The notes under the pieces are model-generated. The model worked only from the letters and a program-made list of their open reading frames with translations, was not told the DNA's origin and searched no databases. DNA of 38,440 nucleotides from Bdellovibrionales bacterium RIFOXYD1_FULL_55_31 (GTDB lineage Bacteria > Bdellovibrionota > UBA1018), in contig MEQK01000202.1 of NCBI GenBank assembly GCA_001770175.1, positions 1-38,440 on the forward strand. Direction: 5' to 3'. Positions within the stretch are counted from its first letter, which is position 1; every line of letters begins with the position of its first letter. Both the position numbers and the translations under genes were made by a program. This document shows, piece by piece, positions 5,248 through 27,078 of this stretch.

Positions 5248-5248
5248 T

Positions 5249-8789: not shown

Positions 8790-8793
8790 GTAC

Positions 8794-9102: not shown

Positions 9103-9650
9103 TTCGCCTCCTTTGACTTTTTCTCGATGACGCCGCGTTTGGCGAGAACAACGCTGCCGATGATCGCCGCAAGGAGAAGAACGGACGTTAATTCGAACGG
9201 CAGTACGTATTCCGAAAAAAGCAGCTCCGAGAGAACTCGGGTGTTCCCGCCGGCGGCTTGAATGTTTTCCGGAGAAAACGGCCCCGGCTGAAGCGGCGCC
9301 GATCCGCTCCTGAAAACGCGCCCGAGCAGGAAGACCATGCCGAATGCGCCGAAGGCCGCGAAGACTCCGGTCAGAATCCGACCCCGCTTATAATCAAACG
9401 AAGCCTGTTCGACGTTCAACAACATGATCACGAAGATGAATAGCACCAGAATCGCGCCGGCGTAGATCAGGACCTGAAGTGCAGCCACGAGGTGCGCGTC
9501 CAACAACGCGTAAATTCCCGCGAAGGAAAAGAACACCACCAGAAGACTGAACGCGCTCGCGATTGCGCTTCGGTTCAGGATCACAAGGAGCGAAAACAGA
9601 ATCGACGTCCCGGCAAATACATAAAAAAAGCCCGGCGAAATATTCATCAC
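9099..9650 (-). CDS. nuoJ: NADH-quinone oxidoreductase subunit J (canonical copy)
   Basis: 183 aa; VAALQVLIYAGAILVLFIFVIMLLNVE. Confidence 0.95.
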   Translation of the reverse strand: MMNISPGFFYVFAGTSILFSLLVILNRSAIASAFSLLVVFFSFAGIYALLDAHLVAALQVLIYAGAILVLFIFVIMLLNVEQASFDYKRGRILTGVFAAFGAFGMVFLLGRVFRSGSAPLQPGPFSPENIQAAGGNTRVLSELLFSEYVLPFELTSVLLLAAIIGSVVLAKRGVIEKKSKEAK

Positions 9651-10087
9651 TTGTTTCCCCGCTGCTCAAGTAAAAAGGCCTTGTCGTAAACCGGTCGCCT
9701 CGCCGAGCTCATCTCATAGATCGTACTCAGCTTTATCGCGTCCTTTGGGCAAGCCTCCTCGCACATTCCACAAAAGCAGCACCGCAGAATGTCGATTTCG
9801 AACTTAACCGGATATTTTTCTTTATCGGGCCGCTCGCCGGCTTCGATGTGAATGCATTCGGAGGGGCAGACGGTCGGACAGAGCATGCAGGCGGTGCAGT
9901 TCTCGACACCGTTCGTTGCCTTAATGTAATGCTGTCCGCGAAACCGTTCGGAATATCGGCGCCGCTGTTCCGGATATTGGATCGTGACCTTCCGAGAAAA
10001 GAATTTCCGGATTGTGATCCAGAGCCCGAGAATGATCTCGAACAAATAGAATCGTGAAAAGAAGGCTGTTTTCCGCTTTACCAGCAT
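9647..10087 (-). CDS. nuoI: NADH-quinone oxidoreductase subunit I, 2x[4Fe-4S] ferredoxin-like
   Basis: CTACMLCPTVCPSECIHIE and CCFCGMCEEACPKDAI. Confidence 0.96.
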   Translation of the reverse strand: MLVKRKTAFFSRFYLFEIILGLWITIRKFFSRKVTIQYPEQRRRYSERFRGQHYIKATNGVENCTACMLCPTVCPSECIHIEAGERPDKEKYPVKFEIDILRCCFCGMCEEACPKDAIKLSTIYEMSSARRPVYDKAFLLEQRGNK

Positions 10088-10090
10088 AAC

Positions 10091-11170
10091 TCAAACCCAT
10101 CCTTTATAGACCAGCGCAGCCGTAACACAGATATTGGCCAAAGAGAGCGGGAACATCACCCGCCAGCCGAGGTCCATAAGCTGGTCATAGCGAAAGCGGG
10201 GCAGCGTCCACCGGACCCAGACGAAAAACCACATGAAGAAGGCGATTTTCACGGTGAACGAAATAATCTCGAATAAGACCCGAATCCAATCTTGAGTGCT
10301 GCCTTGGAGATGAAGCGCTCCGAGAACGGTCCCCATTCCCGGCAGAAGCTGGTATCCGCCAAAGAACAAAGTCACGGCGAGACCCGAAGCGACAGCCATA
10401 TTCATGTATTCGGCCATCATGAACGTCGCGAATTTCATGGCGCCGTACTCAACGTGATATCCGACGATTTCGGGCTCTCCCTCGGGAAGATCGAACGGTA
10501 GCCGGTTCGTTTCGGCGAACACGGCCGTCAGGAACACCAGGAAACCAATTGGCTGGACGAAGATTCCCCACCTGGGGATGACAATTGGACCGAATGACAG
10601 CAGGGCCTCGCTCTGAAGTTTTACCATTTGTCCAAGCTCGACGGTCGAATGGATCATAACCAGCCCGACCACCGATAAGGCGAGCGAAATTTCATAACTG
10701 ATCATCTGGGACGAGCTTCGCATGGACCCGAGAATGGAAAAGCTGTTATTTGAGGCCCAGCCTCCCATAATCAAGCCGTAAACCCCCAACGAGGCGATCG
10801 CGAAAATATAGAGAAAACCGACGTTCAGATCCGCGGCCTGCATCGGGATCACCTGTCCGGCGATCGTAATCGGGCCCGCAAACGGAATCACGGCGAAGGT
10901 CATACATGCCGGAACAAGCACAACGATCGGCGCGATGAAATAGTAAAACGGTGAGACATGAGCGGGAACCCGGTCTTCCTTAAATAGAAATTTGACCGCA
11001 TCAGCCACCGTTTGCAGCAGCCCAAAAGGACCCACTCGATTCGGCCCCCGGCGAATCTGAATAAAGCCCGCGCCACGCCGCTCTACCCAGTTCATCACCG
11101 GCGCAACACTGAGAAGCATCGTGATCACGAAGCCTGTCTTTGCGAGGACGGCCACCCACTCGACACTCAT
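10091..11170 (-). CDS. nuoH: NADH-quinone oxidoreductase subunit H (canonical copy)
   Basis: ERRGAGFIQIRRGPNRVGPFGLLQTVADAVKFLFKED and AETNRLPFDLPEGEPEIVGYHVEYGAMKFATFMMAEY; start set to MSVEW (ATGA overlap with nuoG stop). Confidence 0.95.
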   Translation of the reverse strand: MSVEWVAVLAKTGFVITMLLSVAPVMNWVERRGAGFIQIRRGPNRVGPFGLLQTVADAVKFLFKEDRVPAHVSPFYYFIAPIVVLVPACMTFAVIPFAGPITIAGQVIPMQAADLNVGFLYIFAIASLGVYGLIMGGWASNNSFSILGSMRSSSQMISYEISLALSVVGLVMIHSTVELGQMVKLQSEALLSFGPIVIPRWGIFVQPIGFLVFLTAVFAETNRLPFDLPEGEPEIVGYHVEYGAMKFATFMMAEYMNMAVASGLAVTLFFGGYQLLPGMGTVLGALHLQGSTQDWIRVLFEIISFTVKIAFFMWFFVWVRWTLPRFRYDQLMDLGWRVMFPLSLANICVTAALVYKGWV

Positions 11171-12585
11171 CGGGCGCCCTCCTTGTGATTGATCCAAGTC
11201 ATCAAAACTTCCGGAAGTCCCTTGCAGCCGTCCGGCGGCGCGACGGCCCGGCGGAACGTCTGCTCGCGTCCCTGAAAATTGACGACTGTTCCGTCCTTCT
11301 CGGCAAAGGTAACTCCGGGCAATACCGCCGCGAAGCTCTCCACTTCCTTCCGTTTAAAAACCCCGATGCCCACTATTTTCGACAGTTTTAATTCGGGCAG
11401 AACCGCGCGACCGCCCCTAACAATAAGAACGGCATCGGTTCCCGCCGGAAGCTTTTCAAACCCGTTGTAACCAAGCTTCTCCAGACCATGAAGATTGGCG
11501 GTACGGCTTTTTCTTTTGAGTATCTTATCCGCCGGCCCGTCGTCCTTGCTCGAGATGATCTCGGGCGTTCCAAAATGGAAAAACGGCGCACCTGGAAATT
11601 TTCTCGGGAGAAACTCGTCACGGAGCAGTACGGCCTCCTGCTGAGTGAGATCCGAGCCGACAAGAATCGCCGGCTTCTTCGCGTTCATCGTCTCGCGAGC
11701 CGCTTCGATGGCACGATCCCAATTTGTAACCTCGAGTTTACCGCTTAACCTCGCCATGGGGGCGACGACGCGATCCTTATCGTGGATGTAATGAAAGTTG
11801 AACCGGCCCTCGTCACAGAGCCAATATTTGTTTACCTCCAGGTTTTCGCGCGGAACGCAGCGGTAGATCACGTTTCCATCCTGGTGAATTTCCATGTTGC
11901 AGCCCCGCGCGCAGGCTTCACAGGTCGTGGGCGTCTTCTTGAGGAACCAGACGCGTCGCTTAAATCTGAAATCCTTTAACAGGAGAGACCCGGTCGGGCA
12001 GATGTCCGCATAATTACCGGCGTAATCCGTTTCAAGCGGACGCCCATCGATCGTGCTGATCTCGGTCCAATTACCGCGCTCCGTGGCGACCATCTCGTGA
12101 ATTCCGGCGACCTCGATCCCGAACCGGATGCAGCGGGTGCAATGAATGCAACGGTTCATGTTTTTCACGATCACGGGACCCATATCGAGGTCCACATAGG
12201 TCCGGCGCTCTTCGGTCATTCGCGTGTGCGGGTCGCCGTATTCGAATGAGTAGTCCTGGAGATCGCATTCACCCGACTTGTCGCAGATGGGACAGTCCAG
12301 CGGGTGATTGATCAAAAGATACTCCGAAACCGCCTTTTGGTTCTGCACCGCGCGCGGAGACCGCGTTTTCACGACCATTCCGCTCTTCGGCAGGGTGGCG
12401 CAAGCGGGCTGTAACTTCGGCACGTTCTCGATTTCGACCGAACACATCCGGCACTGGGCCACGACAGAGAGACCAGGGTGATAACAATAATACGGAATTT
12501 CGACTCCCACCTTTTTGGCGACTTCGATCAGATTTTGACCCGGAACGAACTCCACCTCTCGTCCGTCAATCACGCATGTGGGCAT
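11167..12585 (-). CDS. nuoG: NADH-quinone oxidoreductase subunit G, compact form
   Basis: 472 aa; 2Fe-2S N-terminal domain, CPICDKSGECDLQDYSFEYG, CIHCTRC, N7-type CEACARGC...LCDEG; short remnant of the molybdopterin-like domain. Confidence 0.93.
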   Translation of the reverse strand: MPTCVIDGREVEFVPGQNLIEVAKKVGVEIPYYCYHPGLSVVAQCRMCSVEIENVPKLQPACATLPKSGMVVKTRSPRAVQNQKAVSEYLLINHPLDCPICDKSGECDLQDYSFEYGDPHTRMTEERRTYVDLDMGPVIVKNMNRCIHCTRCIRFGIEVAGIHEMVATERGNWTEISTIDGRPLETDYAGNYADICPTGSLLLKDFRFKRRVWFLKKTPTTCEACARGCNMEIHQDGNVIYRCVPRENLEVNKYWLCDEGRFNFHYIHDKDRVVAPMARLSGKLEVTNWDRAIEAARETMNAKKPAILVGSDLTQQEAVLLRDEFLPRKFPGAPFFHFGTPEIISSKDDGPADKILKRKSRTANLHGLEKLGYNGFEKLPAGTDAVLIVRGGRAVLPELKLSKIVGIGVFKRKEVESFAAVLPGVTFAEKDGTVVNFQGREQTFRRAVAPPDGCKGLPEVLMTWINHKEGAR

Positions 12586-13883
12586 TTTCCACCTCGGATG
12601 TGAGCCTCAAAATCAGCCCTGAATTTCGTGACGAAGCTAATGATCGGCCCCGCTGCGGCGTCCGCCAGCGCGCAGAGGGATTTCGCATTCATGTTATCGG
12701 CGACCTGCAGAATCAGGCCGAGATCCTGCTGATGCCCGCGACCGCCCTCGATCCGATCCAGGATGTCCTGAGCCCATTTCGTTCCTTCCCGGCAGGGGGT
12801 GCACTGGCCACAGGATTCGTGAGCATAGAACCTGACGATCCGCGCAAGCAGGCGGACCAAGCAGTAATCCTCACTCACGACGATCATGCCCGCGGACCCG
12901 AGCATCGAACCTATTTTCAACATCGGGTCGATATCGGCGACCACGTCGATCTCGTCTGCCCGGAGGACCGGCGCCGATGAACCGCCGGGAATCACCGCTT
13001 TCAGTTTTTTATCATCCAGAATGCCGTGACAATAATCATAGATCAGCTGGCGAACGGTCACACTGCCGGAGTCGAGCTCGTAGAGTCCGGGTTTTTTTAC
13101 GTGTCCCGATACTTCGTAAATCCGAGTGCCGCCGGAATTGGTGATGCGGCCAAGTTTAGCGTACCAATCTCCTCCCCGGTTGAGCACGAAAGGAACCCCG
13201 GCAAGTGTTTCGACGTTATTAACGACCGTGGGCCCGCCGAAAGCCCCCGCGATGGCGGGGTATGGCGGCTTGACTCTCGGCTCGCCGCGCCGGCCCTCAA
13301 GCGAATTCAGGAGCGCCGTTTCCTCTCCGCATATATAGGCTCCCGCGCCACGATGAATCGTGATCTCGAAATCGAACCCCGTGCCCATGATGTTTTTGCC
13401 GAGATAGCCCGCTTTTTCAGCCTCCAAAATCGCGGCCTGGAGAATCCCGGTTTCGCGGACGTACTCCCCCCGAATGTAGATATATCCCGTATGTGCGCCG
13501 ATTGCGTACGCGCCGATCGCCATTCCCTCGAGAACCAGGTGGGGCGTATACCGCATGAGATCGCGGTCCTTGAATGTTCCGGGCTCGGACTCATCGGCGT
13601 TGCAGATAAAATATTTCGCCTTGGCCGACTCCTTGGGAATCAGACTCCATTTGACCCCCGCGGGAAATCCCGCGCCACCGCGTCCGCGGATGTGTGCCTT
13701 TTTGACTTCGTTTATGACCTCGTCGCTCGACATTCCGAGTGCTTTTTTGAGCGCGGAATAGCCACTCATGTTTTTCAGGTAATAAGAAAGCGGCCGTGCT
13801 TCCTCACAAAAGTGCTGAATAAAGAGGGTCTCGGGCTGACTGTCTTCGAATGGCTGTTCAGGGGGTCGTTCTTGCTCCGACAT
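12570..13883 (-). CDS. nuoF: NADH-quinone oxidoreductase subunit F (FMN/NADH binding)
   Basis: RGRGGAGFPAGVKWSL, GAGAYICGEETALLNSLEG, ESCGQCTPCREGTKW. Confidence 0.97.
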   Translation of the reverse strand: MSEQERPPEQPFEDSQPETLFIQHFCEEARPLSYYLKNMSGYSALKKALGMSSDEVINEVKKAHIRGRGGAGFPAGVKWSLIPKESAKAKYFICNADESEPGTFKDRDLMRYTPHLVLEGMAIGAYAIGAHTGYIYIRGEYVRETGILQAAILEAEKAGYLGKNIMGTGFDFEITIHRGAGAYICGEETALLNSLEGRRGEPRVKPPYPAIAGAFGGPTVVNNVETLAGVPFVLNRGGDWYAKLGRITNSGGTRIYEVSGHVKKPGLYELDSGSVTVRQLIYDYCHGILDDKKLKAVIPGGSSAPVLRADEIDVVADIDPMLKIGSMLGSAGMIVVSEDYCLVRLLARIVRFYAHESCGQCTPCREGTKWAQDILDRIEGGRGHQQDLGLILQVADNMNAKSLCALADAAAGPIISFVTKFRADFEAHIRGGKCPHA

Positions 13884-13886
13884 CGC

Positions 13887-14363
13887 TCACTCCAATTCGC
13901 CGAGAATCCGATCAAGCTTCTGGACGTCGAGGTTCTCGTGGTAGTCGTCATTAATCATCATCGCCGGCGCGGTGCCACAAGCACCCAAGCACTCCTCTTC
14001 GTCAACCGTGAACTTTTTATCCGGTGTGGTTTCCGCCACCTTAATTCCCAGTTTCTTCTCGCAATGTTCGAGAAGCCGTTCGGCACCCCGTAACGAGCAG
14101 GACACGTTTGTACAGACTTTGATGTGGTACTTCCCGACCGGTTTGAAGTTATACATCGAATAGAACGTCGCGACCTCACGAACCTGTGCCGGATGAATTC
14201 CGATATACTCGGCGACTTCGTCCATTACGCCCGAAGACAACCAACCGAACTCATCCTGCGCGGCGTGAAGCGCCGGCAGAAGCAGCGCCAGCTTGCTCGG
14301 ATATCGGGGCTCCAGCTTTTTCATCGTCGAGTAGAATTTATCAGAGAGTATTTTATCGGCCAT
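13887..14363 (-). CDS. nuoE: NADH-quinone oxidoreductase subunit E (2Fe-2S)
   Basis: ATFYSMYNFKPVGKYHIKVCTNVSCSLRGAERLL...EECLGACGTAPAMMIND. Confidence 0.96.
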   Translation of the reverse strand: MADKILSDKFYSTMKKLEPRYPSKLALLLPALHAAQDEFGWLSSGVMDEVAEYIGIHPAQVREVATFYSMYNFKPVGKYHIKVCTNVSCSLRGAERLLEHCEKKLGIKVAETTPDKKFTVDEEECLGACGTAPAMMINDDYHENLDVQKLDRILGELE

Positions 14364-14374
14364 ATCGGTTCCCC

Positions 14375-15595
14375 TTACCTGTCAATCTCGCCCGCGATAA
14401 CATTGATGCTTCCGAATGTGGCCACCATGTCCGCGACTTTGAGACCCCTCACCATCAGGGGGAGCGCCTGGAAGTGCCAAAACGACGGTCCGCGAACCCT
14501 CATCCTGTGTGCCTTGCTCGATCCTTTACTGACGATATAGAAACCAAACTCCCCGTTCGCGGCTTCAAACTGAGTGTAAGTTTCGCCCGCGGGGACCTCG
14601 AACCCAGTCATGAAAAACTTGAAATGATGGATCATGCCTTCCATCGTGTTGTAAACGACATCTTTATCTGGAATTCTGACACGTTTGTCCTCACACCAGA
14701 TCGGTCCGGGCTTAATGCGGTCCGCGCATTGGGTAATAATGTTCAAGGACTGCCTGATCTCCTCGATTCGGACGAGATAGCGGCTGAAGATATCTCCCTC
14801 TTTCGCGTAAGGCACATCGAATTCCACATCCTTGTAGAACATGCACGGCTGGTCCCGGCGCAAATCGACGTCAAGACCGGAACCGCGCGCATTCGGTCCC
14901 GAGAAACCGTATTCGATGCACTGCTCTTTCGTGATGACACCCACTCCGATCGTTCGCTTTTGCCAGATCCGGTTCATCGTGAGCAACCGGTCCATTTCAT
15001 CAATGGTCTTGCGCGTGCGCTTGACCCAGGCTTTGACGTCTTTTTCCCAGCCTTCCGGCGCATCTGCCATTAACCCGCCGATTCTGGTGAATGATGTCGT
15101 CAGGCGCGAGCCGCAAAGCCTTTCAATCAGGGTATAGGCTTCTTCACGTTCGTGAAAACCATATAGGAAGTACGAGAACGCGCCAATGTCGACGGCATTA
15201 ATCCCGACGCAAACCAAATGGTCAATCACACGAGCCATTTCACTGCAGACCATTCGAATCCAGATCGTCCGTTCGGGAACTTCAATTCCCATCAGTCGTT
15301 CGACGGCCATTGCATAAACCGTATTGTTGATCATGGCGGAAACGTAGTTCATCCGGTCCGTATAAACGATGTACTGATGATACGTGCGGTTTTCACCCAT
15401 TTTCTCTTTTGCGCGATGGGTGTATCCAAATTCGCCGTAGGAATTTTCGATAGTTTCGCCATTGAGCTTGGCTACGAGCCTGAAGGCGCCGTGCATCGCG
15501 GGGTGAATGGGCCCAATATTGACGATCGCCCGGGAATCCTCCCAGAGGTCATCCGGATCTCGGTTGAGGACGCTCTTGTATTTCGTGTCGCTCAT
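14375..15595 (-). CDS. nuoD: NADH-quinone oxidoreductase subunit D (canonical copy)
   Basis: 406 aa; NIGPIHPAMHGAFRL, TDRMNYVSAM, NAVDIGAFSYF, GPNARGSGLDVDLRRDQP. Confidence 0.97.
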   Translation of the reverse strand: MSDTKYKSVLNRDPDDLWEDSRAIVNIGPIHPAMHGAFRLVAKLNGETIENSYGEFGYTHRAKEKMGENRTYHQYIVYTDRMNYVSAMINNTVYAMAVERLMGIEVPERTIWIRMVCSEMARVIDHLVCVGINAVDIGAFSYFLYGFHEREEAYTLIERLCGSRLTTSFTRIGGLMADAPEGWEKDVKAWVKRTRKTIDEMDRLLTMNRIWQKRTIGVGVITKEQCIEYGFSGPNARGSGLDVDLRRDQPCMFYKDVEFDVPYAKEGDIFSRYLVRIEEIRQSLNIITQCADRIKPGPIWCEDKRVRIPDKDVVYNTMEGMIHHFKFFMTGFEVPAGETYTQFEAANGEFGFYIVSKGSSKAHRMRVRGPSFWHFQALPLMVRGLKVADMVATFGSINVIAGEIDR

Positions 15596-15613
15596 CGGCT
15601 TCGCCTTCCTGGG

Positions 15614-16192
15614 TTACCCGTCCAGAAGAGCTGGGTCGGCCAACTCGGGTTCCGTAAAAATTTGATAGGCTTTGAGTGGAAAATCCTTTCGAAGCGGATG
15701 GCCCACGTACCGGATATCCATCAAAATCCGACGAAGGTCGGGATGCCCGGCGAACTTTATGCCGAACATGTCGAATATTTCCCGCTCGGCCCAATTCGCC
15801 CCCGGCCAGACTGCCATGGCCGTCGCCGCCTCCTCGTCGTCCCTGAGTCGAACTTTCAGGCGAATTCTGACGAGCTTCGTAGTCGAGAACAGGTTGTAAA
15901 CGAGCTCAAATCGCGGTTCGACGGATTCGTCAGTGGCGGTCAAATCCGAGAGAAAATTGTATTCGAATGCCGAATCCGTTTTCATGAAGCTTAGGACATT
16001 CAGAATACTTTCTTTTTTCACGTAGATGATTGGGACGTCCGTGGGATATTCCGGCGGCATTCGCGCTTCCAGGATGTCATCTCCAAACCGATGCCGGAGC
16101 GTGCTGATCTGGGCTTTCCAGAGCTCCCCGAATTTTGGAACCCAGTCTCCGAACGTGGTGGGCACGTAGTTTCTGATATCGGTGATTTCCAT
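15614..16192 (-). CDS. nuoC: NADH-quinone oxidoreductase subunit C (canonical copy)
   Basis: From MEITDIRNY; AEREIFDMFGIKFAGHPDLRRILMDIRYVGHPLRKDFPL (30-kDa subunit signature). The upstream extension in the ORF track is not plausible coding. Confidence 0.95.
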   Translation of the reverse strand: MEITDIRNYVPTTFGDWVPKFGELWKAQISTLRHRFGDDILEARMPPEYPTDVPIIYVKKESILNVLSFMKTDSAFEYNFLSDLTATDESVEPRFELVYNLFSTTKLVRIRLKVRLRDDEEAATAMAVWPGANWAEREIFDMFGIKFAGHPDLRRILMDIRYVGHPLRKDFPLKAYQIFTEPELADPALLDG

Positions 16193-16214
16193 CTTTACCC
16201 CTGTAGACTGACGA

Positions 16215-16700
16215 TCAGGCCCTCTGCCGTCGCTGGGCGTGTGTGTCACCTCGCGAAATTTTCTCCTGAAGCCCCAGCAAACCGTGGAGAAGGTTTTCGG
16301 GATTCGGCGGACACCCCGGAACATAGACGTCCACGGGAATGACAGTGTCGATACCCTTGAGCACACAATACGAATCAAAAAGACCGTTTCCAGAGCTGGC
16401 ACAGGAACCCATCGAGATGACCCATTTAGGATCAGACATCTGATCGTAAATCATGCGTAAAACAGGTGCCATTTTAAGATTCACTATCCCGGCGACAATC
16501 AGAAGATCACTTTGCCGCGGAGAAAACCTGACCACCTCCGCTCCAAACCGCGAGATGTCATAATCGGCCGCGAGCGTTGACATCATTTCAATCCCGCAGC
16601 AACTTGTCCCAAACGGAAGCGGCCAAAGCGCGTTTTTTCTCCCCCAGCTGATGAATTGCTCGAGTCGCGTCGTCAGAAAGCCTGTTGATCCGTCTCTCAT
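16215..16700 (-). CDS. nuoB: NADH-quinone oxidoreductase subunit B (canonical copy)
   Basis: [37 protein letters not shown]; start set to MRDGSTGF to avoid overlap with nuoA. Confidence 0.96.
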
Positions 16701-16704
16701 CGCC

Positions 16705-17064
16705 TCACTCCCAATCCAGCGCGCCTTTTCTGAGAACATAGAAGTATCCCACGAGGAGAATCGCGAGGAATACGCCCATTTCGAACAGAATGAATGAATT
16801 AATGCTCAGGTATTTCCTGAATACGATCGCCCAGGGGAAAAAGAAGATGATTTCGACATCGAAAAGCAGAAAAAGAATCCCAACCAGGAAAAAGCGGACC
16901 GAAATGCGGTGTCTCGGCGCGCGAATTGAGGTCTGCCCGCACTCATACGGGGAATCCTTTCTTCGATTCGCCATTTTTGGGCCAAGGAAATGGGAGGCTA
17001 AAAGTGCTCCGATCCCAATCGCCATACCCAAGAACATAAGAAGCAGTACCGGTATATAGGCCAT
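16705..17064 (-). CDS. nuoA: NADH-quinone oxidoreductase subunit A (canonical copy)
   Basis: 119 aa; KDSPYECG...[27 protein letters not shown]. Confidence 0.96.
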
Positions 17065-17102
17065 GCTAATCGAAACTTATATCCGGAGCTGCGCGGGCGG
17101 CG

Positions 17103-18599
17103 CTACCACAAAATATACTGAATCGATTTTGCGGTCCACGCGAGAGCCTGTTCGGCAAAAATTCCCGTCAAGAGAACGGGAACCATCAGAATAGCCAGAA
17201 AGGCGTAACGCGCATGATTGGTGCCCGTCGTGCAATTTGCGGCGCGATCCGCGGCGTGGTGCAACGCGGATTTTCTGAAATCTCCAATCAGACAATAAGA
17301 CAGGCGCGCCACAGAAACCGTTGAAACCGCCATTGAAACAATGGCAACGACAGCCAGCGCCATCCAGTGTTGCCGAAGGGCCGCGCCGATAAGCGTAAAC
17401 TTCCCGATGAACCCGGGCATCGGAGGCAGGCCAACCAACGTGATAAGAAACAGAATCAAACAAACACACTCGGGTACTGCCCTAGCCAGCATTCCCTTGA
17501 GATCCTCGAGCCGATCCGATCGAAGCTCGTCCATCAGGAAGGAGAGAATAAAGAAGATTCCGGTGATGGAAAACAATTCGATCATCAGATTGTAGAGCAG
17601 TGCGGCAATCCCGACGCTGTCGAGAACGAGAACACCCATCAAAAGATGTCCTGTTTCGGCGATAATAAGCGCGGCAACCATTCGTTTGGCTCCCACTTGG
17701 CGCATGGCGAGAAACGAGCCGATCACCATCGAGAGCCCTGCGGCTAGAGCAACGAGACGAGTCCAATCCAGCTGTCCGAGAATTTCCCATTGCCCCTGCG
17801 TCAGAGATGGCTGGGCAAATAGAACCAGCAGGAATCGAAGCGTTATGACAAATCCCGCCGCCCGCGAACCGATCGAAAGAAACGCGGAAACCGGGGTGGG
17901 GGAGCCCTCCAGCACGTCCGGAGCCCAAAGATACATCGGAAACGCACCCAGCTGAAAACTGAGCGCCAGAAATATCAAGGTGAAGGCCGCGAGGGACACC
18001 TCTCTTGAGAGTGGTACGGCCAGGAGTGATCTGTGAATTTCGTATATGTTCAAAACATGCGTAGCCGAGAAGAGAATGGCCATTCCGTAAGCCAACAATC
18101 CCGCCGAAACGACGCCGAACAACATATGTTTGAATGCGGCTTCGTTTGAGATGGGTGATCGCTTCGCGTAGCCAGCAAGAAGGTACCCAATGATATTCAC
18201 GAACTGAAGCGAAAGGAACGCCAGCAGCAGATCCGTCGAGGACGCCGCCAGGCACATTCCAAGGGTCGCCGCCAGAATCAGGACCGTATACTCCGCCCTT
18301 TTGTTCGGACTGATCTCGCGCGTTTGAACAGCAACAATGATCGAGAGAACCGCTAGAGAAATGAAGAAGAGCCTGAAAAAGAATGAAAGGCCGTCAATTG
18401 AAAGCGTATTGTTGAAAACCTGGCTGGGTCCATATTTGTAGGCGAGAAAACTTTGGATCAACGCGCTTGCGAGTCCCATGAGGGCGGTGATCGAAATGAG
18501 CCGGTACCTTTCTCCGTGATACGTGATTTCGCCGATCACCACGAATCCAAGCGTCAGCGCGATCAAGATTTCAGGCAAAATTAAGATAAGGTCTTTCAC
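17103..18599 (-). CDS. Divergent NuoN-like subunit of second complex I-like cluster (NuoN2)
   Basis: 498 aa; collinear with NuoN (SFQLGAFPMYLWAPDVLEGSPTPVSAFLSIGSRAAGF, GLPPMPGFIGKF) but TM5 Glu is Gln and TM7 Lys is Gln. Confidence 0.93.
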   Translation of the reverse strand: MKDLILILPEILIALTLGFVVIGEITYHGERYRLISITALMGLASALIQSFLAYKYGPSQVFNNTLSIDGLSFFFRLFFISLAVLSIIVAVQTREISPNKRAEYTVLILAATLGMCLAASSTDLLLAFLSLQFVNIIGYLLAGYAKRSPISNEAAFKHMLFGVVSAGLLAYGMAILFSATHVLNIYEIHRSLLAVPLSREVSLAAFTLIFLALSFQLGAFPMYLWAPDVLEGSPTPVSAFLSIGSRAAGFVITLRFLLVLFAQPSLTQGQWEILGQLDWTRLVALAAGLSMVIGSFLAMRQVGAKRMVAALIIAETGHLLMGVLVLDSVGIAALLYNLMIELFSITGIFFILSFLMDELRSDRLEDLKGMLARAVPECVCLILFLITLVGLPPMPGFIGKFTLIGAALRQHWMALAVVAIVSMAVSTVSVARLSYCLIGDFRKSALHHAADRAANCTTGTNHARYAFLAILMVPVLLTGIFAEQALAWTAKSIQYILW

Positions 18600-18632
18600 T
18601 CGTTCCCTCTTCCTTTTCTCATCAGACCCCTC

Positions 18633-20156
18633 CTACTTCACCGTCGACAAAAGGGTCAGGACCGTGGGCCTGACTAGCTCAAGAAGCGGCTTCGGGTACA
18701 TTCCGCAAAACAGCAGCCCGGAAACCAGCGGCAACAGATATGCCTGTTCCCGAAGCGTGAGATCGCCGAAAACCCCCATTTCGACGCTGCTGTCGCCGAG
18801 GAAGATAAGCCTATACATGACAAACAGGTAGTAGGTCGCCAACAGGACTGCACAAACGGCCAAAATAACGGCGAGCGGGTGCCCCGGGTAACCGCCGATC
18901 AGAAGGAGCGAGTGTCCCACGAAGCCGCCCAGGCCAGGAAACCCAAGCAGCGAAGCGACGAAAATCCCCGAAATAACCGCCATCGTTGGAGCCCGGGTAG
19001 CAATTCCTCCAAGCGGCCGCGGGCCGCCATCCTCACGCATAAAAACGGAGTGTCCGGCACGATCGTTCAACAGCCCCGAAAAAAGCCCGAAGCCGGCTAG
19101 CCCAAGCCCGAGGACGAGTTGCTCGTACACCGCGCCGACGACACCGGCCGAATTCAGAGATCCGACGCCGAGCAGAACAAAGCCGACCTCGCCCACGCAG
19201 AGAAAGGCAAGTAGTAGGCGAAGATCCCGCTGCGCGACGGATGAAACACCACCAACGAAGAGATTAATCGCGCCGACGGCGACTATGATGCCTCCTGCCG
19301 CGAGAAGGCTCTCGGGAAACAAGGTGTAGGAAAGCCGCATGAAAATGTAGATCGCGACCGGAACGGTAACCGCCGAAAGAGCGACAAACACGGATGGTGG
19401 CGCTTCGCGCGCCGCGTGCGTGAACCAGCTGTGCAGCGGCCATATCGCGGCTCGAAATGCCAGGCCGGTCCCGATCAACGCGAACGCCACGACGGAGAGC
19501 GAGAACTCGTGACCAAGAATTTCAAAGCTCTTTCCAGTGAGCTTCGCGTTGGCGAGTTCACGAAGAGAAAAACTATGCGGATCAACGGAGTAGTAAACCA
19601 GAATCAGCGCCGCAAACAGAAGCGCGTTGCCGATCGAGGCGGCGACAATCGAGCGAAAGGCCGCGCCCTCGCGGCCGGGGCCACCCCAGATCCCGATCAA
19701 GAAATAGAACGGAAGCGCGCTCAGCGCCCAAAAAAAGAAAAGAAGAAAAAGGTCTTGGGCACAGGCGACGCCGAAGAATGCAGTCTGGAGAATAAGAAAG
19801 AGACCATACATCCCCCGCGCACCGACCTTCTGATTCCACTCGGATGCGATCAGAACGGGAAATATGATTGAGACAAGCAGAACAATGAGCGCGTTCAGAC
19901 CATCGACGCCCATGTCGTAGCTGATCGCGTAGGACCCGACCCATTCAAGAATCTCGATCGCCTGGAGATCCGCCGTTCCTCGCTGCATGGAAATAACCAG
20001 AACGAAACCACAGATGCTCGCGCCAAGGCTCGCGGAAAGAGCCATCCACCTCGCGACCATGTCGGAACGAACGCCCTTGATTCCCGGCAAGAAGGCCTGA
20101 AAAAGGGCTCCGACAAGCGGAAGCAGTACCATCGAAGAAATCAAATGATTATTCAC
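18633..20156 (-). CDS. Divergent NuoM-like subunit of second cluster (NuoM2)
   Basis: 507 aa; FFFWALSALPFYFLIGIWGGPGREGAAF, AFRAAIWPLHSWFTHAAREAPPSVFVALSAVTVPVAIYIFMR, GLGGFVGHSLLL; collinear with NuoM. Confidence 0.92.
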   Translation of the reverse strand: MNNHLISSMVLLPLVGALFQAFLPGIKGVRSDMVARWMALSASLGASICGFVLVISMQRGTADLQAIEILEWVGSYAISYDMGVDGLNALIVLLVSIIFPVLIASEWNQKVGARGMYGLFLILQTAFFGVACAQDLFLLFFFWALSALPFYFLIGIWGGPGREGAAFRSIVAASIGNALLFAALILVYYSVDPHSFSLRELANAKLTGKSFEILGHEFSLSVVAFALIGTGLAFRAAIWPLHSWFTHAAREAPPSVFVALSAVTVPVAIYIFMRLSYTLFPESLLAAGGIIVAVGAINLFVGGVSSVAQRDLRLLLAFLCVGEVGFVLLGVGSLNSAGVVGAVYEQLVLGLGLAGFGLFSGLLNDRAGHSVFMREDGGPRPLGGIATRAPTMAVISGIFVASLLGFPGLGGFVGHSLLLIGGYPGHPLAVILAVCAVLLATYYLFVMYRLIFLGDSSVEMGVFGDLTLREQAYLLPLVSGLLFCGMYPKPLLELVRPTVLTLLSTVK

Positions 20157-20166
20157 GTTCTTTTCC

Positions 20167-22107
20167 TCAACCCCTCATGAAATGTAACAACATGGCCATT
20201 CCCGACCCGATCCCGAACAGCAGATACCATTGGACATCGCCGTTCTGGATCAGCTGGAACACTTTGCCCGGGACCTGCACGACCCGTAAAACGGTCGCGT
20301 TTAATCGCTCCGAGAATTTATCGTCCGCGGCCGTGAACGCCGCGGCGGTATTGCGGATCAGCCGAACCGCCAGCGTACCGCCAAGTCGCCCCGCGAATTG
20401 TTCGCCGACCGCCCAATCGATAAAGCTCCCGGTCGCTCTCATGATCCCGAGAACCCAAAGACCAAAACGATCGACCCCGTATCCGGACGTAAGAAATGCG
20501 GAAAAACGCGGGAACGTCCTCGCCGCCTGCTGAAACAGATCCAATTTCCTGCCGCTCGTCCAATAGGCCGTCGCGAAAGCGACGGCCTGAATTCCCAGCA
20601 AAAGCCAGAGCGCCGACGATAGCGCTTCGCCGTCTCCGGCGCGGTCTCGCGCCGACGAGGACCCGAAAAGAATATCGAACAAGGATGCAAAGAGCCTGTC
20701 GGGGGCCTCAAAAACCGCCTCTCCGGAGGCCGTTCCGGTCCAAACAAGTCCGAGCGCAAGCACGATCAGAACGAATGGCGCGCTGATCGTGAACCACGAT
20801 GCATCACTGATGCTCTTCACCCGAAATGCATTCCAGGCGAGCTTCCAGCCGTGAAGAACAAAAAGAAAAAAGACGAATCCAGCCGCGAACTCAAGGGCGG
20901 ATGAGTCCCATACCGCAAGCCACCTCAGGATTCCGCCGGCGGACACGAAGCCCAGTACGCCCGTGGCGGCGGCCACGGCCGCGAAACAGGCCACCTTTAT
21001 CCAGTCTGACTTGGTTCCATTCGACGCGCCCTTGGGTCCCTTGACGTCGAACGCGGAAACGGCGATCGAGAAAGCGGCCGCCCCAAGAACGAGCCCGATG
21101 AGAACAGCCGTTGCCACCCACTGTCCGGAAAACGCGAGCGTAGAGAAAACAACAGAGAAGCCGGCCGAAATCCAAAGACTCAGCCCCTGTCGTCCTTGCG
21201 TCTGAAGGAACCCGGAGCCGATCGTGAAAAGAGCGGAGCCCAATGCCACCCATCCGAAGACCGGCAGGATCCCGACGCTTCTGAGCTGCGGCTCGAGCCG
21301 GATGAGGACGCCAAAAACCGCAAGCGCCGGAAAAACCTGATTCAGAACAACCCGGAGAACGGGAGGACTTCCCGAAGAGGTGATAATCCAGCCGGTCAGC
21401 GGAAAGGACTGAAGCTGAATAAAAAGTCCGGCGGCGAGAAGGCCCGCTCCGATCTCGTCTGAGGAACCGGGGAGCGCGGCCCAACTCTCCGCATTCGCCC
21501 AATCCAGGGGCGGGCGTGATCCGGCGAGAATGCATGCTCCGAGAACCGCCAGGAAGAGGCCCCACGACTTTTCCCAACCGAACCGCATCGCGACATTCGC
21601 TTCACCATCCGTGTCCCACCGCGATCCGAGCGAGACGAACCCTCCAAGAATAGCGAGACCGATTCCGACAAAAGACAGCCATGGCGTCATTGCTATCCAT
21701 GAAATCGAAACACCCACGGTTGAGATCGCAAACGCCGCTTTGTACCGCTCCGGCGAGGGCTCCTTTGCCAGAAGGCCGCGGTTAAGCAACACGATTCCCG
21801 ACAAGATAGTTGCAAGAGCCACCATCGTGAGCCCTAGCGGATCTTGTAAAACACCGACAGTAATGGCGCCCGGCTCGTCTCGCGGCAGAATCCAGCCGGT
21901 CAGCCATCGCTTTTCGTGAAGTCCTTCTTCAACAAGACTGCTCCAGCCAAGCGCAACCATGGCAAGGAGTCCGACAAGCAAAATCCCGATAATCCACGTA
22001 GCGTAATTCTGGCGCCGCTTTCCGAAAACGAGAACAGCCAGGCCGGCCAGAAAAAGGATGAAAAGGTAAGACGCGAGAACGATGGGGGTTCCGTATAGAA
22101 GTTCCAT
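20167..22107 (-). CDS. Divergent NuoL-like subunit of second cluster (NuoL2)
   Basis: 646 aa, highly hydrophobic; FIQLQSFPLTGWIITSSGSPPVLRVVLNQVF; C-terminal NuoL-type region YGVDRFGLWVLG...QNGDVQWYLLFGIG; located between nuoK2 and nuoM2. Confidence 0.88.
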   Translation of the reverse strand: MELLYGTPIVLASYLFILFLAGLAVLVFGKRRQNYATWIIGILLVGLLAMVALGWSSLVEEGLHEKRWLTGWILPRDEPGAITVGVLQDPLGLTMVALATILSGIVLLNRGLLAKEPSPERYKAAFAISTVGVSISWIAMTPWLSFVGIGLAILGGFVSLGSRWDTDGEANVAMRFGWEKSWGLFLAVLGACILAGSRPPLDWANAESWAALPGSSDEIGAGLLAAGLFIQLQSFPLTGWIITSSGSPPVLRVVLNQVFPALAVFGVLIRLEPQLRSVGILPVFGWVALGSALFTIGSGFLQTQGRQGLSLWISAGFSVVFSTLAFSGQWVATAVLIGLVLGAAAFSIAVSAFDVKGPKGASNGTKSDWIKVACFAAVAAATGVLGFVSAGGILRWLAVWDSSALEFAAGFVFFLFVLHGWKLAWNAFRVKSISDASWFTISAPFVLIVLALGLVWTGTASGEAVFEAPDRLFASLFDILFGSSSARDRAGDGEALSSALWLLLGIQAVAFATAYWTSGRKLDLFQQAARTFPRFSAFLTSGYGVDRFGLWVLGIMRATGSFIDWAVGEQFAGRLGGTLAVRLIRNTAAAFTAADDKFSERLNATVLRVVQVPGKVFQLIQNGDVQWYLLFGIGSGMAMLLHFMRG

Positions 22108-22397
22108 TATTGTTTCAAGATCCGCAATCCATCAACTTTTCCCTGCCCTCGCAGGTAAAACTGACGAATAGCAAGCGCGTACCCGCCCACGAGCTGCGCG
22201 ATCCCTCCGAATGTAATGAAAAGCCCGAATATATGTCCCTCTGGCCTTGCTCCAGATGAAATTCCAGCCAGAACAAAGATCATGGTCGCCCCCATGATCA
22301 GCAGTTGACCGCCAATCAAGAGCCCAAGGAAAGTTCTGCGAGAGATAATGCAGACAAGGCCCATCGCGCCGATAACACCGGCGACCGCCATGATCAT
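22107..22397 (-). CDS. Divergent NuoK-like subunit of second cluster (NuoK2)
   Basis: 96 aa, three TM segments; ISRRTFLGLLIGGQLLIMGATMIFVLAG aligns with the NuoK RRNILVVLMCIELMLNAVNLTFV region. Confidence 0.88.
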   Translation of the reverse strand: MIMAVAGVIGAMGLVCIISRRTFLGLLIGGQLLIMGATMIFVLAGISSGARPEGHIFGLFITFGGIAQLVGGYALAIRQFYLRGQGKVDGLRILKQ

Positions 22398-22942
22398 GCG
22401 CGCCCCCTTTTCTGCTCGCCGGGTTTTCGCGACTTGTCCACGACATCGTCCTGTCCGGTTTGCGGTCTCGCGATCACGCCTCCTCCAACCAGCACGGTGA
22501 ACAGCGTCAAAGCGAGGACTTCGAGCGAAAGAAAATGCTCTTCCGAGATCTTCTTCCCCAGGCTGCCCAAATCATTTCCGTCTCGCGGAATAACAAGCAT
22601 ATTTTCCGGCAATGTTCCCGCGCCAAGCCAGATCACCGCCGCAAAAGCCAGACCCAAACCGAGTGACGCCCAGAAAATCAGCCCCGTGCGCCTACTTTCG
22701 GAATTTCCGCTCCCAGCCCCGTACTCGCCGAACATGACGGAAAAGAAAACGAAAGAGATGGAGACCATCGTCGAGACGATCCACTGAATAACCGCAAGGA
22801 GCTCCGCGCCAAGCGTCAGATAAATCGCGCCAATGCCGAGCCCCGCCACCCAAAGCGAAAGAACCCCCAGACGTAGCCCTCCGGCGAATGTCGCCACCAA
22901 TCCGCCGGCCACCGTTACAAACGCGAATGCCCAGTGAATCAT
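22394..22942 (-). CDS. Divergent NuoJ-like subunit of second cluster (NuoJ2)
   Basis: 182 aa, multi-TM; GAIYLTLGAELLAVIQWIVSTMVSISFVFFSVMFGE aligns with NuoJ; position between nuoI2 and nuoK2. Confidence 0.85.
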   Translation of the reverse strand: MIHWAFAFVTVAGGLVATFAGGLRLGVLSLWVAGLGIGAIYLTLGAELLAVIQWIVSTMVSISFVFFSVMFGEYGAGSGNSESRRTGLIFWASLGLGLAFAAVIWLGAGTLPENMLVIPRDGNDLGSLGKKISEEHFLSLEVLALTLFTVLVGGGVIARPQTGQDDVVDKSRKPGEQKRGRA

Positions 22943-23475
22943 AGGATCACCCTGTCATCCTCGATCTGCTGCCGCAGCTTTGCCCATTTTAGCCGCTGCT
23001 CGGGGGTGACCCAACCGCGCCCGAAACTCGCTACCAGCTCGGGGAGCTCGTAAACAGCTCCTTCAAAATTTTTGGTGTGTTTCAGAGAGGCGGGCTGGCA
23101 AACCTCCGCGCAGATACCGCAGAAAACGCACTTCGAAAAATCGATGTCGAAGACCGAAACCCAGATTTTGGTATCATCCGTCGCCGGCTCCGCCTCAACG
23201 CAGATACACTGGACGGGGCACTGCCGCTCGCATTCCTTGCATCCCGTGCAGCGCTCGATGTCGTTAACGAGAAAACCGCGGCTCCTGGGCGGAAGATCGT
23301 CAGCAATTTTCGAAGAAATCGGGTCCGGATATTGTTCGGTCACCTCCTTGCTGAGCTCGCCCGACCCGAAAAGATACGGTATCGCCGTCAGGCAGGACCC
23401 CCATACCGAACGAATGCCCCAAAGGACGTCCCGAAGATAACCGAGAATGGTCGAAAAAACCGAACCTCTCATCAT
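22939..23475 (-). CDS. NuoI-like 2x[4Fe-4S] subunit of second cluster (NuoI2)
   Basis: IERCTGCKECERQCPVQCICVEAEP and CVFCGICAEVCQPASLKHT; start uncertain (23505, 23475 or 23472). Confidence 0.93.
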   Translation of the reverse strand: MMRGSVFSTILGYLRDVLWGIRSVWGSCLTAIPYLFGSGELSKEVTEQYPDPISSKIADDLPPRSRGFLVNDIERCTGCKECERQCPVQCICVEAEPATDDTKIWVSVFDIDFSKCVFCGICAEVCQPASLKHTKNFEGAVYELPELVASFGRGWVTPEQRLKWAKLRQQIEDDRVIL

Positions 23476-23489
23476 AGCGGGACCTCCTG

Positions 23490-24566
23490 TCACAACGCCC
23501 CCCATCCGGCCACAAGGCTCGCGCCAATCAGGGCAACCAGGGAAAACGGGCTTAAAACACGCCAGGCGAAATCCGTGACCTGGTCAACCCGGCTCCTTGG
23601 GTTCACCTTTGCTATCCAGGTCACGACGAGAACAAGTAAAAACGTCTTTGAAAGAAGCCAGCAAAGCTCAAAAATTTGCAACAGTCTCGGGCTATCCGCA
23701 TTACGGAGTTCGGTGGAGAGGCCAAACGGAAGCTCCCATCCTCCCAAGAAAAGAACGACCGCGATTACGGACCAAAGCAGAAAGCCATAAAACCGACCGA
23801 GACGAAAAACCGTGAGCTTTCTTCCGGAAAGGTGAGAGGAGACGCCTCCATGAATATCCGGCGCTGAAAACGCCGCATCCATCGGCGGTATTCCCAACAA
23901 AACGAGCCCGCTGATCACGAATACAAAAAATGCGATGAACTGAAACGGATTTGCCGCCGCCGTCCAAAGCAACGGCGAGGAGGATTGTGCCGCGGCTATT
24001 TCACTCCAACGAAAGCCCCCTGCGCGAATTCCGGCACAAAGAAGTGCTATCAGCGCCGGGAAGGCACCGGCCAGCGCCTGTGCGGCGACCCGGATCCCGC
24101 CAAACCAGCCCGGAACGGAGCCCTGGCTAAGCCCAAGAAACATCGTCCCCAACGCCAAGACGAGGGCGGACCAGAAGGGAAGAAACGCGCTCATGTCGGT
24201 ATCGACCAGAAGAAGCAGTGAACCGAGCGGAATCACCGCGACCGTGGAATAGAGCGCCATCGTGTGGACGAGAAGCCAAATCGCCTCGCGCCAGTTCCAG
24301 TCTCGCGACGCCTGCTTTTGAAGCAGCTTCAAAAGGTCGGCAACCGGTTGCAGAACGCCCGCGGGTCCAGCCCGATTTGGACCGACCCGCGCCTGAAAAT
24401 CCGCGCTCAGTTTGCGTTCAAGATAGCCCATAACTGCGCCACTCGGAACAATAACGAGGCAATAGATAAGCACAAGTCCACAAGCGGTCAGGAGCCACTG
24501 GGGCACGCTCTCAGCAAAACTGAAGCCCGAAATCCAGGGGTTTAGCCACATCGCCTGCGCGTTCAT
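23490..24566 (-). CDS. Divergent NuoH-like subunit of second cluster (NuoH2)
   Basis: 358 aa; YLERKLSADFQARVGPNRAGPAGVLQPVADLLKLLQKQ is clear NuoH; later loop GIPPMDAAFSAPDIHGGVSSHLSGRKL replaces the acidic NuoH motif. Confidence 0.93.
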   Translation of the reverse strand: MNAQAMWLNPWISGFSFAESVPQWLLTACGLVLIYCLVIVPSGAVMGYLERKLSADFQARVGPNRAGPAGVLQPVADLLKLLQKQASRDWNWREAIWLLVHTMALYSTVAVIPLGSLLLLVDTDMSAFLPFWSALVLALGTMFLGLSQGSVPGWFGGIRVAAQALAGAFPALIALLCAGIRAGGFRWSEIAAAQSSSPLLWTAAANPFQFIAFFVFVISGLVLLGIPPMDAAFSAPDIHGGVSSHLSGRKLTVFRLGRFYGFLLWSVIAVVLFLGGWELPFGLSTELRNADSPRLLQIFELCWLLSKTFLLVLVVTWIAKVNPRSRVDQVTDFAWRVLSPFSLVALIGASLVAGWGAL

Positions 24567-25687
24567 CGATCCGCCTCCGCAACCCCAATATCCAAGGTCG
24601 CCAAGACCACCGGCAGGTCCTCGATTCTGATTCCACGCACCAGCTGCGGAAGAACGCTGAGCAACGCGAGAGAAGGGGGACGAAACTGAATTCGTTCCGG
24701 ATATGCGCCGCCATCCGATACCAGATGACAGCCAAGCAAGCCGCGCGAACTTTCGATTCGAATATAGGCCTCACCCCGCGGAACCTCGAAGCTCTCTTCC
24801 GGCTTCCGAAGCGCGAAGGGCCCGGAAGTAATCGCCTCGGCCGATTGTTTCAAAATTTCGACACTGGTCGAAATTTCCTGAAGCCGCAGCAAAAACCGGT
24901 GATTTGCGTCCCCCAGGTGTTGAGATTCGCGCCTTCCAACCGGAACTTCAAAATCCAGAAAATCATATCCTGAATAAGGATGTTCTTTTCTTACGTCGAA
25001 GGAAATGCCCGAGGCCCGCGCGTTAGGACCGGTCACGCCAAACGCCCTGGCCAATTCCGGGGCGATCGTCCCGATACCGCGAGTACGCTTTATGAAGGCG
25101 TGATTATACGTGAACAAATCATTGTACTCTTTGAGCCTGATGCGCAGGAGTTCACAAATTTCGAGAACCCGCTCAATGAAGCCTTCCGTTACATCCGCCT
25201 GCACACCCCCGAAACGAAGAAAGTTCAACGAAACCCGCGCGCCGGTCGCGAGCTCGAAAAGATCGAGAATTTTTTCGCGATCACGCAAGACGTAATGAAC
25301 CATCGTTTCCGAGCCGACCGCTCGCGCGACCCGAACGATATACCCCATGTGCGCGGATATTCGAGTCAACTCGGAAAGTATGACCCGGATACTCTGCGCA
25401 CGCGGCGGAACCGCGAGCGCCGCGATTTCCTCAACCGCAAGGCAAAGCGCAAGCTCTCCGAACAGAGCACCTTCGGGATCAAGGCGATCCGCATAGGGAA
25501 TGGCCGACCTCCAAAGCTGCCGCTCAAGTGCTTTTTCGAGGCCTCGATGAAGAAAACCCGTTTCAACCTCTCCGGCAACAATTAGCTCTCCATCCAATCG
25601 TAAGCGAAGCAACATCGGGCCCGGCAGCGAATGATCATACGGCCCGATCTCCCATTGAGTCAGATCTGTCTTGAGTGACTCAATCAT
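24563..25687 (-). CDS. Divergent NuoD-like subunit of second cluster (NuoD2)
   Basis: 374 aa; EVETGFLHRGLEKALE, IRVILSELTRISAHM, GVTGPNARASGISFDVRKEHPYSGYDFLDFEVPVGRR, ESSRGLLGCHLVSDGG. No CxxC motifs, so not a NiFe-hydrogenase large subunit. Confidence 0.95.
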   Translation of the reverse strand: MIESLKTDLTQWEIGPYDHSLPGPMLLRLRLDGELIVAGEVETGFLHRGLEKALERQLWRSAIPYADRLDPEGALFGELALCLAVEEIAALAVPPRAQSIRVILSELTRISAHMGYIVRVARAVGSETMVHYVLRDREKILDLFELATGARVSLNFLRFGGVQADVTEGFIERVLEICELLRIRLKEYNDLFTYNHAFIKRTRGIGTIAPELARAFGVTGPNARASGISFDVRKEHPYSGYDFLDFEVPVGRRESQHLGDANHRFLLRLQEISTSVEILKQSAEAITSGPFALRKPEESFEVPRGEAYIRIESSRGLLGCHLVSDGGAYPERIQFRPPSLALLSVLPQLVRGIRIEDLPVVLATLDIGVAEADR

Positions 25688-26187
25688 CGGCAGGGGCCCC
25701 CTCTCGTTCCCTTGTCGCCATCAAATACGAAACTCTTGCGAAGCGGGAATCCTTTCCAGTGATTTGGCGCCGCCTTGGTGTGCTTCATGGAGACGCCGTT
25801 TTCATCGAGAAAGCGTATTCCAAAGAGCTCGGCGATTTCGCGTTCCTGCGGTTCGGCCATTCCCCAAACCCCGGCGAGAGATTGAAAATCGGTCCGTTCA
25901 GTCGGGGAGGTGAGCTCAACCGAACTCCTGAGGATCAGCCGCTCTTTCGTCCGGCTCGATCGAATGAAGTAAGTAAATACGAGCGCGTCCTCGAGTTGCA
26001 TGGCCGAGAGATTCTCAAGCCAGTCCAGCGCGATCGCGGGGTCGTTCTTCAGCGCCATACAAAGTTCGCGAAGTTTCTCGCTTTCGACCCAGAGACAAGT
26101 CTTGGCGCTGCGGCCAAATCGCTGCTTTTCCAGAATTGCGCCTGGAACGAGCTTATTTATTTTTTGTAGCAGCTCGTTCGGTTCCAC
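25684..26187 (-). CDS. NuoC-like subunit of second cluster (NuoC2)
   Basis: 167 aa; EPQEREIAELFGIRFLDENG...HWKGFPLRKSF matches the 30-kDa signature. Confidence 0.9.
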   Translation of the reverse strand: MEPNELLQKINKLVPGAILEKQRFGRSAKTCLWVESEKLRELCMALKNDPAIALDWLENLSAMQLEDALVFTYFIRSSRTKERLILRSSVELTSPTERTDFQSLAGVWGMAEPQEREIAELFGIRFLDENGVSMKHTKAAPNHWKGFPLRKSFVFDGDKGTRGGPCR

Positions 26188-26626
26188 GTAGTCTTTCCTG
26201 CAGGGCGATCAGCCCGTTCATGATTGCTTCGGGCCTGGGAGGGCAGCCCGGAATATAGACGTCCACGGGGATTACCCGGTCGGCCCCTGGGACAACCGAA
26301 TAACTCACATCCGGAGCAAAGGGCCCGCCGCAGTTCGCGCACGAGCCCACCGCCAAAACCAGTTTGGGGGCCAGCATCGAATCGTAAAGTTGCTTGAGAT
26401 ACGGCGCCGCCTTATATGAAATTGCGCCTGTGATAATGAGTAGATCCGACTGTCGGGGATCGACCTGGGGAAGACAGCCGAAACGTTCCAGATCATAACG
26501 ACAACCCAAGGTCGCCAAAAGTTCATTGGAACAACAGCTCGTGCCGGCCGAGATATACCAGAGAGACTGCGCTCGTGCCCAGTCGAGAACCTTTCCGACG
26601 GTGGAGAGATAAAGCTTTCCGTTCAT
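26153..26626 (-). CDS. NuoB-like subunit of second cluster (NuoB2)
   Basis: 157 aa; [67 protein letters not shown]: all four N2 cysteines present. Confidence 0.95.
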   Translation of the reverse strand: MNGKLYLSTVGKVLDWARAQSLWYISAGTSCCSNELLATLGCRYDLERFGCLPQVDPRQSDLLIITGAISYKAAPYLKQLYDSMLAPKLVLAVGSCANCGGPFAPDVSYSVVPGADRVIPVDVYIPGCPPRPEAIMNGLIALQERLRGTERAATKNK

Positions 26627-27078
26627 CTCTTCCCGTCCTCATCTTGAAGATCGCGGGCCTCATGGTAGGAATATAGCCAGCTTAGATCGCCTTTTTTTCC
26701 GGAATAAAGCAACCCGAGCGCCGCGAAGCCAGCGATCGTCACCGTTGCCGCGAGTCCCCAGATCGAAGTTTCCCGCGAGCCCCCCTCAACGGCGGAGTGG
26801 AAGGTTCCGGCGCAGGGGATCAGAATCAGGCCGAGTGCAATCAGTATAAGTGCCGCGTTTGCCGCGAGAAAAAATCTCGCGTTAATCCTTTGTCCGAGAA
26901 GGTTTTGTTTTGAATACGCCGCGGGTTCGCGTTCAGTCTCGCTGTGCGAAGAACCTTTTCTTCGAAGCCGTTCATCTTTCGAAAAAATAAAGGCAATCAT
27001 CGCAAGAATAGCCGGAATTCCGAGCGCCAGAATCGCGGACAAAAAAACTACGTAGTAAACATCCCAGCCACTTGGCAT
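26623..27078 (-). CDS. Divergent NuoA-like subunit of second cluster (NuoA2)
   Basis: 151 aa, three TM segments, INARFFLAANAALILIALGLILIPCAG aligns with Nuo[28 protein letters not shown]; first gene of the cluster. Confidence 0.75.
   Translation of the reverse strand: MPSGWDVYYVVFLSAILALGIPAILAMIAFIFSKDERLRRKGSSHSETEREPAAYSKQNLLGQRINARFFLAANAALILIALGLILIPCAGTFHSAVEGGSRETSIWGLAATVTIAGFAALGLLYSGKKGDLSWLYSYHEARDLQDEDGKR

Follow-up and report, generated by a model that had tools for sequence, protein, structure and literature searches.

The window analyzed here is a 38,440-nucleotide stretch, contig C202 of the 3.7-Mb draft genome of Bdellovibrionales bacterium RIFOXYD1_FULL_55_31. It carries two sets of complex I genes side by side on the minus strand. 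Directly upstream of a canonical 14-gene nuo operon (A to N, 3736–17064), 11 intact ORFs run from 27078 to 17103 in the order A-B-C-D-H-I-J-K-L-M-N, with neighboring ORFs overlapping or standing no more than ~35 bp apart, in agreement with the first-pass annotation of this DNA. The cluster is flanked on one side by a divergent 1188-aa ORF at 27215, which by its sequence appears to be the transcription-repair gene mfd, and on the other by canonical nuoA (17064). Only a 38-bp spacer (17065–17102, minus strand) lies between the paralog nuoN stop and canonical nuoA, and a search of this spacer for a promoter-like site found none. The position of the cluster just ahead of canonical nuo, with such tiny gaps, suggests one transcript, and the two gene sets are probably co-transcribed. 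NuoE, NuoF and NuoG are absent among the 11 paralog ORFs and are encoded in the adjacent canonical operon; no donor or acceptor gene was found inside the 11-gene cluster. NuoG is usually 700–900 aa long. The canonical NuoG of the window (11167–12585) has 472 aa and lacks most of the molybdopterin-like domain, and frames of similar length (~455–522 aa) occur in all relatives.

Family searches against Pfam and NCBIfam named 10 of the 11 ORFs, namely B, C, D, H, I, J, K, M and N and, weakly, A. NuoA (151 aa, 26623–27078) gave a weak NCBIfam match and has an ortholog in 22 other loci. NuoC (167 aa, 25684–26187) matched Complex1_30kDa (E = 2.6e-18), NuoJ (182 aa, 22394–22942) Oxidored_q3, NuoK (96 aa, 22107–22397) Oxidored_q2 and NuoN (498 aa, 17103–18599) Proton_antipo_M, while NuoM (507 aa, 18633–20156) was assigned by family searches and residue alignment. 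NuoL (646 aa, 20167–22107) returned zero matches by sequence to Pfam, NCBIfam or PDB. Its AlphaFold2 model, built from the NuoL family alignment, reached a pLDDT of 82, and Foldseek placed NuoL/ND5 from solved complex I structures at the top of its matches (E = 3e-16, TM ~0.7). The lateral helix and last transmembrane segment are retained, with invariant Q618 and G623 at the C-terminal lateral-helix/TM16 end, and the pump residues are gone. The model of NuoH (358 aa, 23490–24566) matched NuoH/NdhA with a TM of ~0.8 and was of low confidence exactly in the rebuilt TM5–6 loop. As judged by these models, the folds of NuoL and NuoH are kept.

Residue conservation was assessed in per-subunit alignments of three groups: the paralog clusters, the canonical nuo of the same genomes and EFG-less 11-subunit clusters from other phyla, the last serving as a pump-competent control at similar distance. 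The alignments span 22–38 orthologous clusters, and residues were judged at sites invariant in both control groups. Few canonical NuoM and NuoN sequences were available, since the 20-kb pieces truncated them, and for these two subunits the comparison depends mainly on the EFG-less control. All 12 cysteine ligands of N2, N6a and N6b were retained across 36–38 sequences. NuoB (157 aa, 26153–26626) has the N2 ligands C31, C32, C96 and C128, which are found in 35–36 of 36 sequences (one has Gly at the first), and NuoI (188 aa, 22939–23505) has all eight cysteines of N6a and N6b, found in 37–38 of 38. These ligands persist even in paralogs whose NuoD differs by several substitutions per site, and their full conservation favors a role that still moves electrons. 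The first-pass annotation had proposed that Fe-S ligands and overall architecture remain, and the alignments and the predicted NuoL and NuoH folds bear this out.

The residues for quinone binding, coupling and proton translocation followed a different pattern. In NuoD (374 aa, 24563–25687), P22 and P71 stand at the positions of the quinone ligands His38 and Tyr87 (Thermus numbering, by alignment); His38 is absent in 38 of 38 paralogs and Tyr87 in 35 of 38. Nearly all paralogs lack the E-channel glutamates of NuoH (E169, E229, E239, E241, E243, E250 and E263, canonical window numbering); the paralog NuoH of the window has Arg in place of E263, as is the case in 21 sequences. The membrane glutamates of NuoK have become glutamines (Q31 in 21 of 23 sequences, Q at position 68 in 17 of 23), leaving transmembrane segments 2 and 3 with zero acidic residues. 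In NuoM (canonical window numbering), E150 is changed to A, K239 to R, K270 to P, K317 to R and E412 to H; across the family, K239 is Arg in 27, K270 Pro in 23 and K317 Arg in 22, and E150 and E412 are absent. The NuoN of the cluster has Gln in place of E147 and K233, as do most family members, and Arg in place of K263, a change seen in 22. The replacements are often isosteric (E to Q, K to R), and the EFG-less controls retain the quinone and pump residues that the paralogs miss.

The coordinated loss described in the first-pass annotation therefore stands on family alignments with two control groups, with two amendments. Its list of affected subunits (D, H, K, L, M and N) was correct and too short, as NuoA (E71 to Leu, 17 of 22 letters), NuoB (R71 to Q in the quinone-chamber region), NuoC and NuoJ (Y63 absent) are affected as well; NuoL lacks E151. 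The loss is also nearly rather than wholly complete. Charged residues surviving in NuoN include K400 (75%), E103 and K157, and E118, E168, K172 and mostly K415 are retained there too, as are the outer NuoH residues R49, D66, K69, K73, R160 and K317 and an acidic residue at 39. Misalignment as the source of the apparent losses was ruled out, since no key residue appeared at a shifted position in the family alignments. A blind count over all invariant sites of the membrane arm gave 29 of 62 charged sites lost versus 59 of 205 others (Fisher p = 0.013), and the same comparison by Mann–Whitney was not significant; the excess of charged losses is modest and this bulk statistic weakly informative, so the case is made by which functional residues have gone. 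Dozens of positions have become fixed anew among the paralogs, for example NuoK Gln31 and Arg78 and NuoM Arg235, which speaks for re-use over decay. Read from these alignments, the three clusters of the N6a-N6b-N2 wire keep all their ligands, and the deep quinone site, E-channel and proton paths are nearly wholly removed.

Substitution rates confirmed that the ORFs are maintained. In the closest pair of loci (L044/L099, dS 0.1–0.4), dN/dS was 0.02–0.10 for D, H, I, J, K, L, M and N, and in a pair carrying the most reduced version (L062/L063) it was 0.03–0.08 for all eight genes found. The range 0.02–0.10 holds most close-pair values; values are higher in wider pairs, and these, together with one NuoI value, are uninterpretable because of saturation or because the NuoI frame overlaps NuoH. 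All examined subunits are under purifying selection, with values well below 1 wherever closely related pairs exist, and the cluster is therefore not decaying.

The named relatives of the paralog NuoD come from Bdellovibrionota metagenome-assembled genomes, among them contig CAIRTR010000121 and UBA1018, and place the group in the GTDB class UBA1018. This class, for which the name 'Bdellonasia' has been proposed, is the sister of Bacteriovoracia (PMC13200544). Parallel to the arrangement in the window, the cluster was found in 54 of the 58 genomes of the class that were searched, immediately upstream of canonical nuo and on the same strand wherever the contig is long enough, and the canonical nuoA frame of these relatives usually opens within ~60 bases of the nuoN stop. 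The earlier proposal of a retained complex with a new role is borne out by the cluster's occurrence throughout the class, its constant position and its low dN/dS. Of the remaining four genomes, G007 and G056 cannot be judged; the other two, G046 (L178) and G048 (L177), are family f5 species whose canonical nuo has no cluster in front. These species have lost the whole cluster, which is therefore dispensable there, and they provide natural deletion controls. Family f5 is otherwise reduced, with NuoC missing and frames of ~300 aa at the L and M positions. The NuoD frame is interrupted in only two of ~54 genomes (G039 and G030), where assembly error is possible. Locus L186 (G044) has a ~1074-aa open frame with a match to the NuoM paralog, which suggests a fused NuoL-NuoM.

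A wider spread through the phylum was considered and rejected, as the extra NuoD genes of sister families belong to intact 11-subunit clusters or to a B-C-D-I quartet and are not gutted. The quartets are compact, retain NuoD Tyr87 and occur in other families of the phylum (L157–L163, L169–L171, L175 and L176); no membrane subunits were detected beside them. In L160, the quartet is followed by a 635-aa membrane-containing protein.

Phylogeny placed the cluster apart from its neighbor. In the NuoD tree, the paralogs form one clade (100/100) and the canonical NuoD sequences from these genomes another (100/99), the nearest neighbors of the paralogs being EFG-less types, and quick trees of H, M and B likewise gave one paralog clade apart from the canonical sequences. 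Tandem duplication of the neighboring operon was ruled out by these four trees, and the term paralog used in the first-pass annotation holds in the broad sense only: the cluster is a separate lineage, not a duplicate. The trees point to common descent with EFG-less 11-subunit complexes, with long branches that make the exact attachment uncertain, and an enzyme of this kind is the likely ancestor type. A basal member from family f2 (L059) retains Tyr87, half of the E-channel, NuoM K270, H327, H353 and E412 and NuoN E147, and lacks His38, NuoH E169, E229 and E239, NuoM E150 and K239 and NuoN K233 and K263. This mixture shows a half-gutted intermediate, so the losses began in common and then proceeded step by step.

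An EFG-less 11-subunit complex I-like enzyme is known in bacteria, for example in Desulfitobacterium hafniense (PMC11238625). Clusters of this layout occur in Planctomycetota, Calditrichota, Ignavibacteria and Marinimicrobia; they share with the paralog cluster the subunits, their order, the Fe-S wire and the closest NuoD (36–43% identity), but retain the quinone ligands, E-channel and pump residues nearly all missing here. The gene set, gene order and 12 cysteine ligands of the paralog cluster are thus those of an EFG-less enzyme, and His38/Tyr87, the E-channel and the pump Glu/Lys of K, L, M and N are not in place. From its genes, we rate the cluster as an 11-subunit complex I by descent and layout, yet one that falls outside the functional definition of that enzyme. 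The same genome also carries, on contig C134, a second EFG-less 11-gene cluster (L073) with nearly all quinone and pump residues retained; clusters of this pump-competent-looking type occur in some relatives only. Compared to the canonical 14-subunit complex I next door, whose subunits are homologous, the paralog cluster has no NuoE, F or G, its own NuoD clade and almost none of the quinone and pump residues. Photosynthetic NDH-1 of cyanobacteria and chloroplasts also has an EFG-less layout and is the best fold match for paralog NuoH, but its NuoD retains in alignments the His and Tyr that the paralog NuoD lacks. The membrane-bound hydrogenases and MBS (Ech, Mbh and Mbs) have B, D, H, I and antiporter-like subunits of common ancestry. 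In contrast to these, the cluster has complex I gene order and subunit set, and a hydrogenase-type NuoD was ruled out as the paralog sequence has no CxxC-type [NiFe] ligand motif. A hydrogenase-4-like locus (L074) with a 505-aa NuoD homolog, a NuoB homolog and two antiporter-like subunits lies on contig C37 of the same genome. No earlier report of such a cluster was found in the literature, and the text of the paper describing the class mentions neither nuo nor NADH (PMC13200544).

The reading we tentatively prefer, at a probability of roughly 0.4, is that the cluster encodes a membrane-bound, non-pumping, quinone-incompetent sister complex that keeps its electron wire and cooperates with canonical complex I. 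It would have arisen by conversion of an EFG-less 11-subunit complex I. The electron donor would be soluble and of low potential, resembling ferredoxin as it does for other EFG-less complexes, or else the neighboring NADH module; electrons would pass through NuoI to N2 in NuoB and exit to some acceptor that is not quinone at its usual site. With the E-to-Q and K-to-R changes locking it, the membrane arm would serve as an anchor and would probably dock to canonical complex I or be produced in step with it, which would uncouple electron flow from pumping. This reading is consistent with cysteine ligands kept at high divergence, with the loss of quinone and pump residues that EFG-less controls keep, with dN/dS mostly of 0.02–0.10, class-wide adjacency to canonical nuo, retained NuoL and NuoH folds, the invariant NuoL Q618/G623 and lineage-new fixed residues (NuoK Gln31 and Arg78; NuoM Arg235). 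Against it, the cluster brings no donor or acceptor gene, the Fe-S ligands might persist for folding only, one family has shrunk NuoL and NuoM to ~300 aa, two species do without the cluster and the NuoD frames of G039 and G030 are interrupted. In a bolder form, which we hold to be somewhat unlikely, the wired, pump-locked pseudo-complex would dock to canonical complex I as a hetero-supercomplex and gate, relay or vent its electrons, having been kept for the lifetime of the bacterial class.

Nearly as likely as the electron-moving reading is a pure pseudoenzyme without electron chemistry, which would serve canonical complex I structurally, in assembly or in regulation, for example as the silent half of a hetero-dimer. 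An unchanging place directly before canonical nuo, almost or entirely without a spacer, and an architecture retained while functional residues were lost, would suit such a partner; near-invariant Fe-S ligands at great divergence would be needless for a scaffold, and the canonical operon persists without the cluster in two species. A quinone reductase with a relocated, shallower site and no pumping, providing uncoupled electron entry, seems improbable: His38, Tyr87 and the chamber-side NuoB Arg are all gone in most members, even if NuoH residues near the quinone entry remain (R49, D66, K73 and the acidic residue at 39) and basal L059 keeps Tyr87 and half of the E-channel. We give very little weight to two further explanations. 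The cluster could be a leader or spacer, kept because the promoter for canonical nuo lies ahead of it, as the 38-bp spacing and the lack of a promoter-like match there would allow, but selection acts at the amino-acid level in every subunit compared and two species manage without it. It could equally be what is left of an earlier 11-subunit complex I in decay; in favor of this one might cite losses that differ step by step from lineage to lineage, the reduced L and M of one family, the two species that lost the cluster altogether and the two interrupted NuoD frames. Neutral decay of a pseudogene cluster is, however, ruled out by the close-pair dN/dS, with interruptions in only two of ~54 genomes, frames open in nearly all and the ligands invariant.

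A complex I look-alike is thus kept class-wide with its quinone and pump residues replaced and its Fe-S ligands intact, which supports the view that evolution preserves the cluster for a job other than the textbook role of complex I. It has long been asked how complex I couples quinone chemistry to pumping along its whole length, and so far single mutations have been the main test. Here, nature has replaced a near-full set of coupling residues, retained the architecture and left a half-converted intermediate, a natural experiment that could show which residues are needed for pumping and which for structure only. It would be a respiratory complex conserved whole after the loss of its textbook function.
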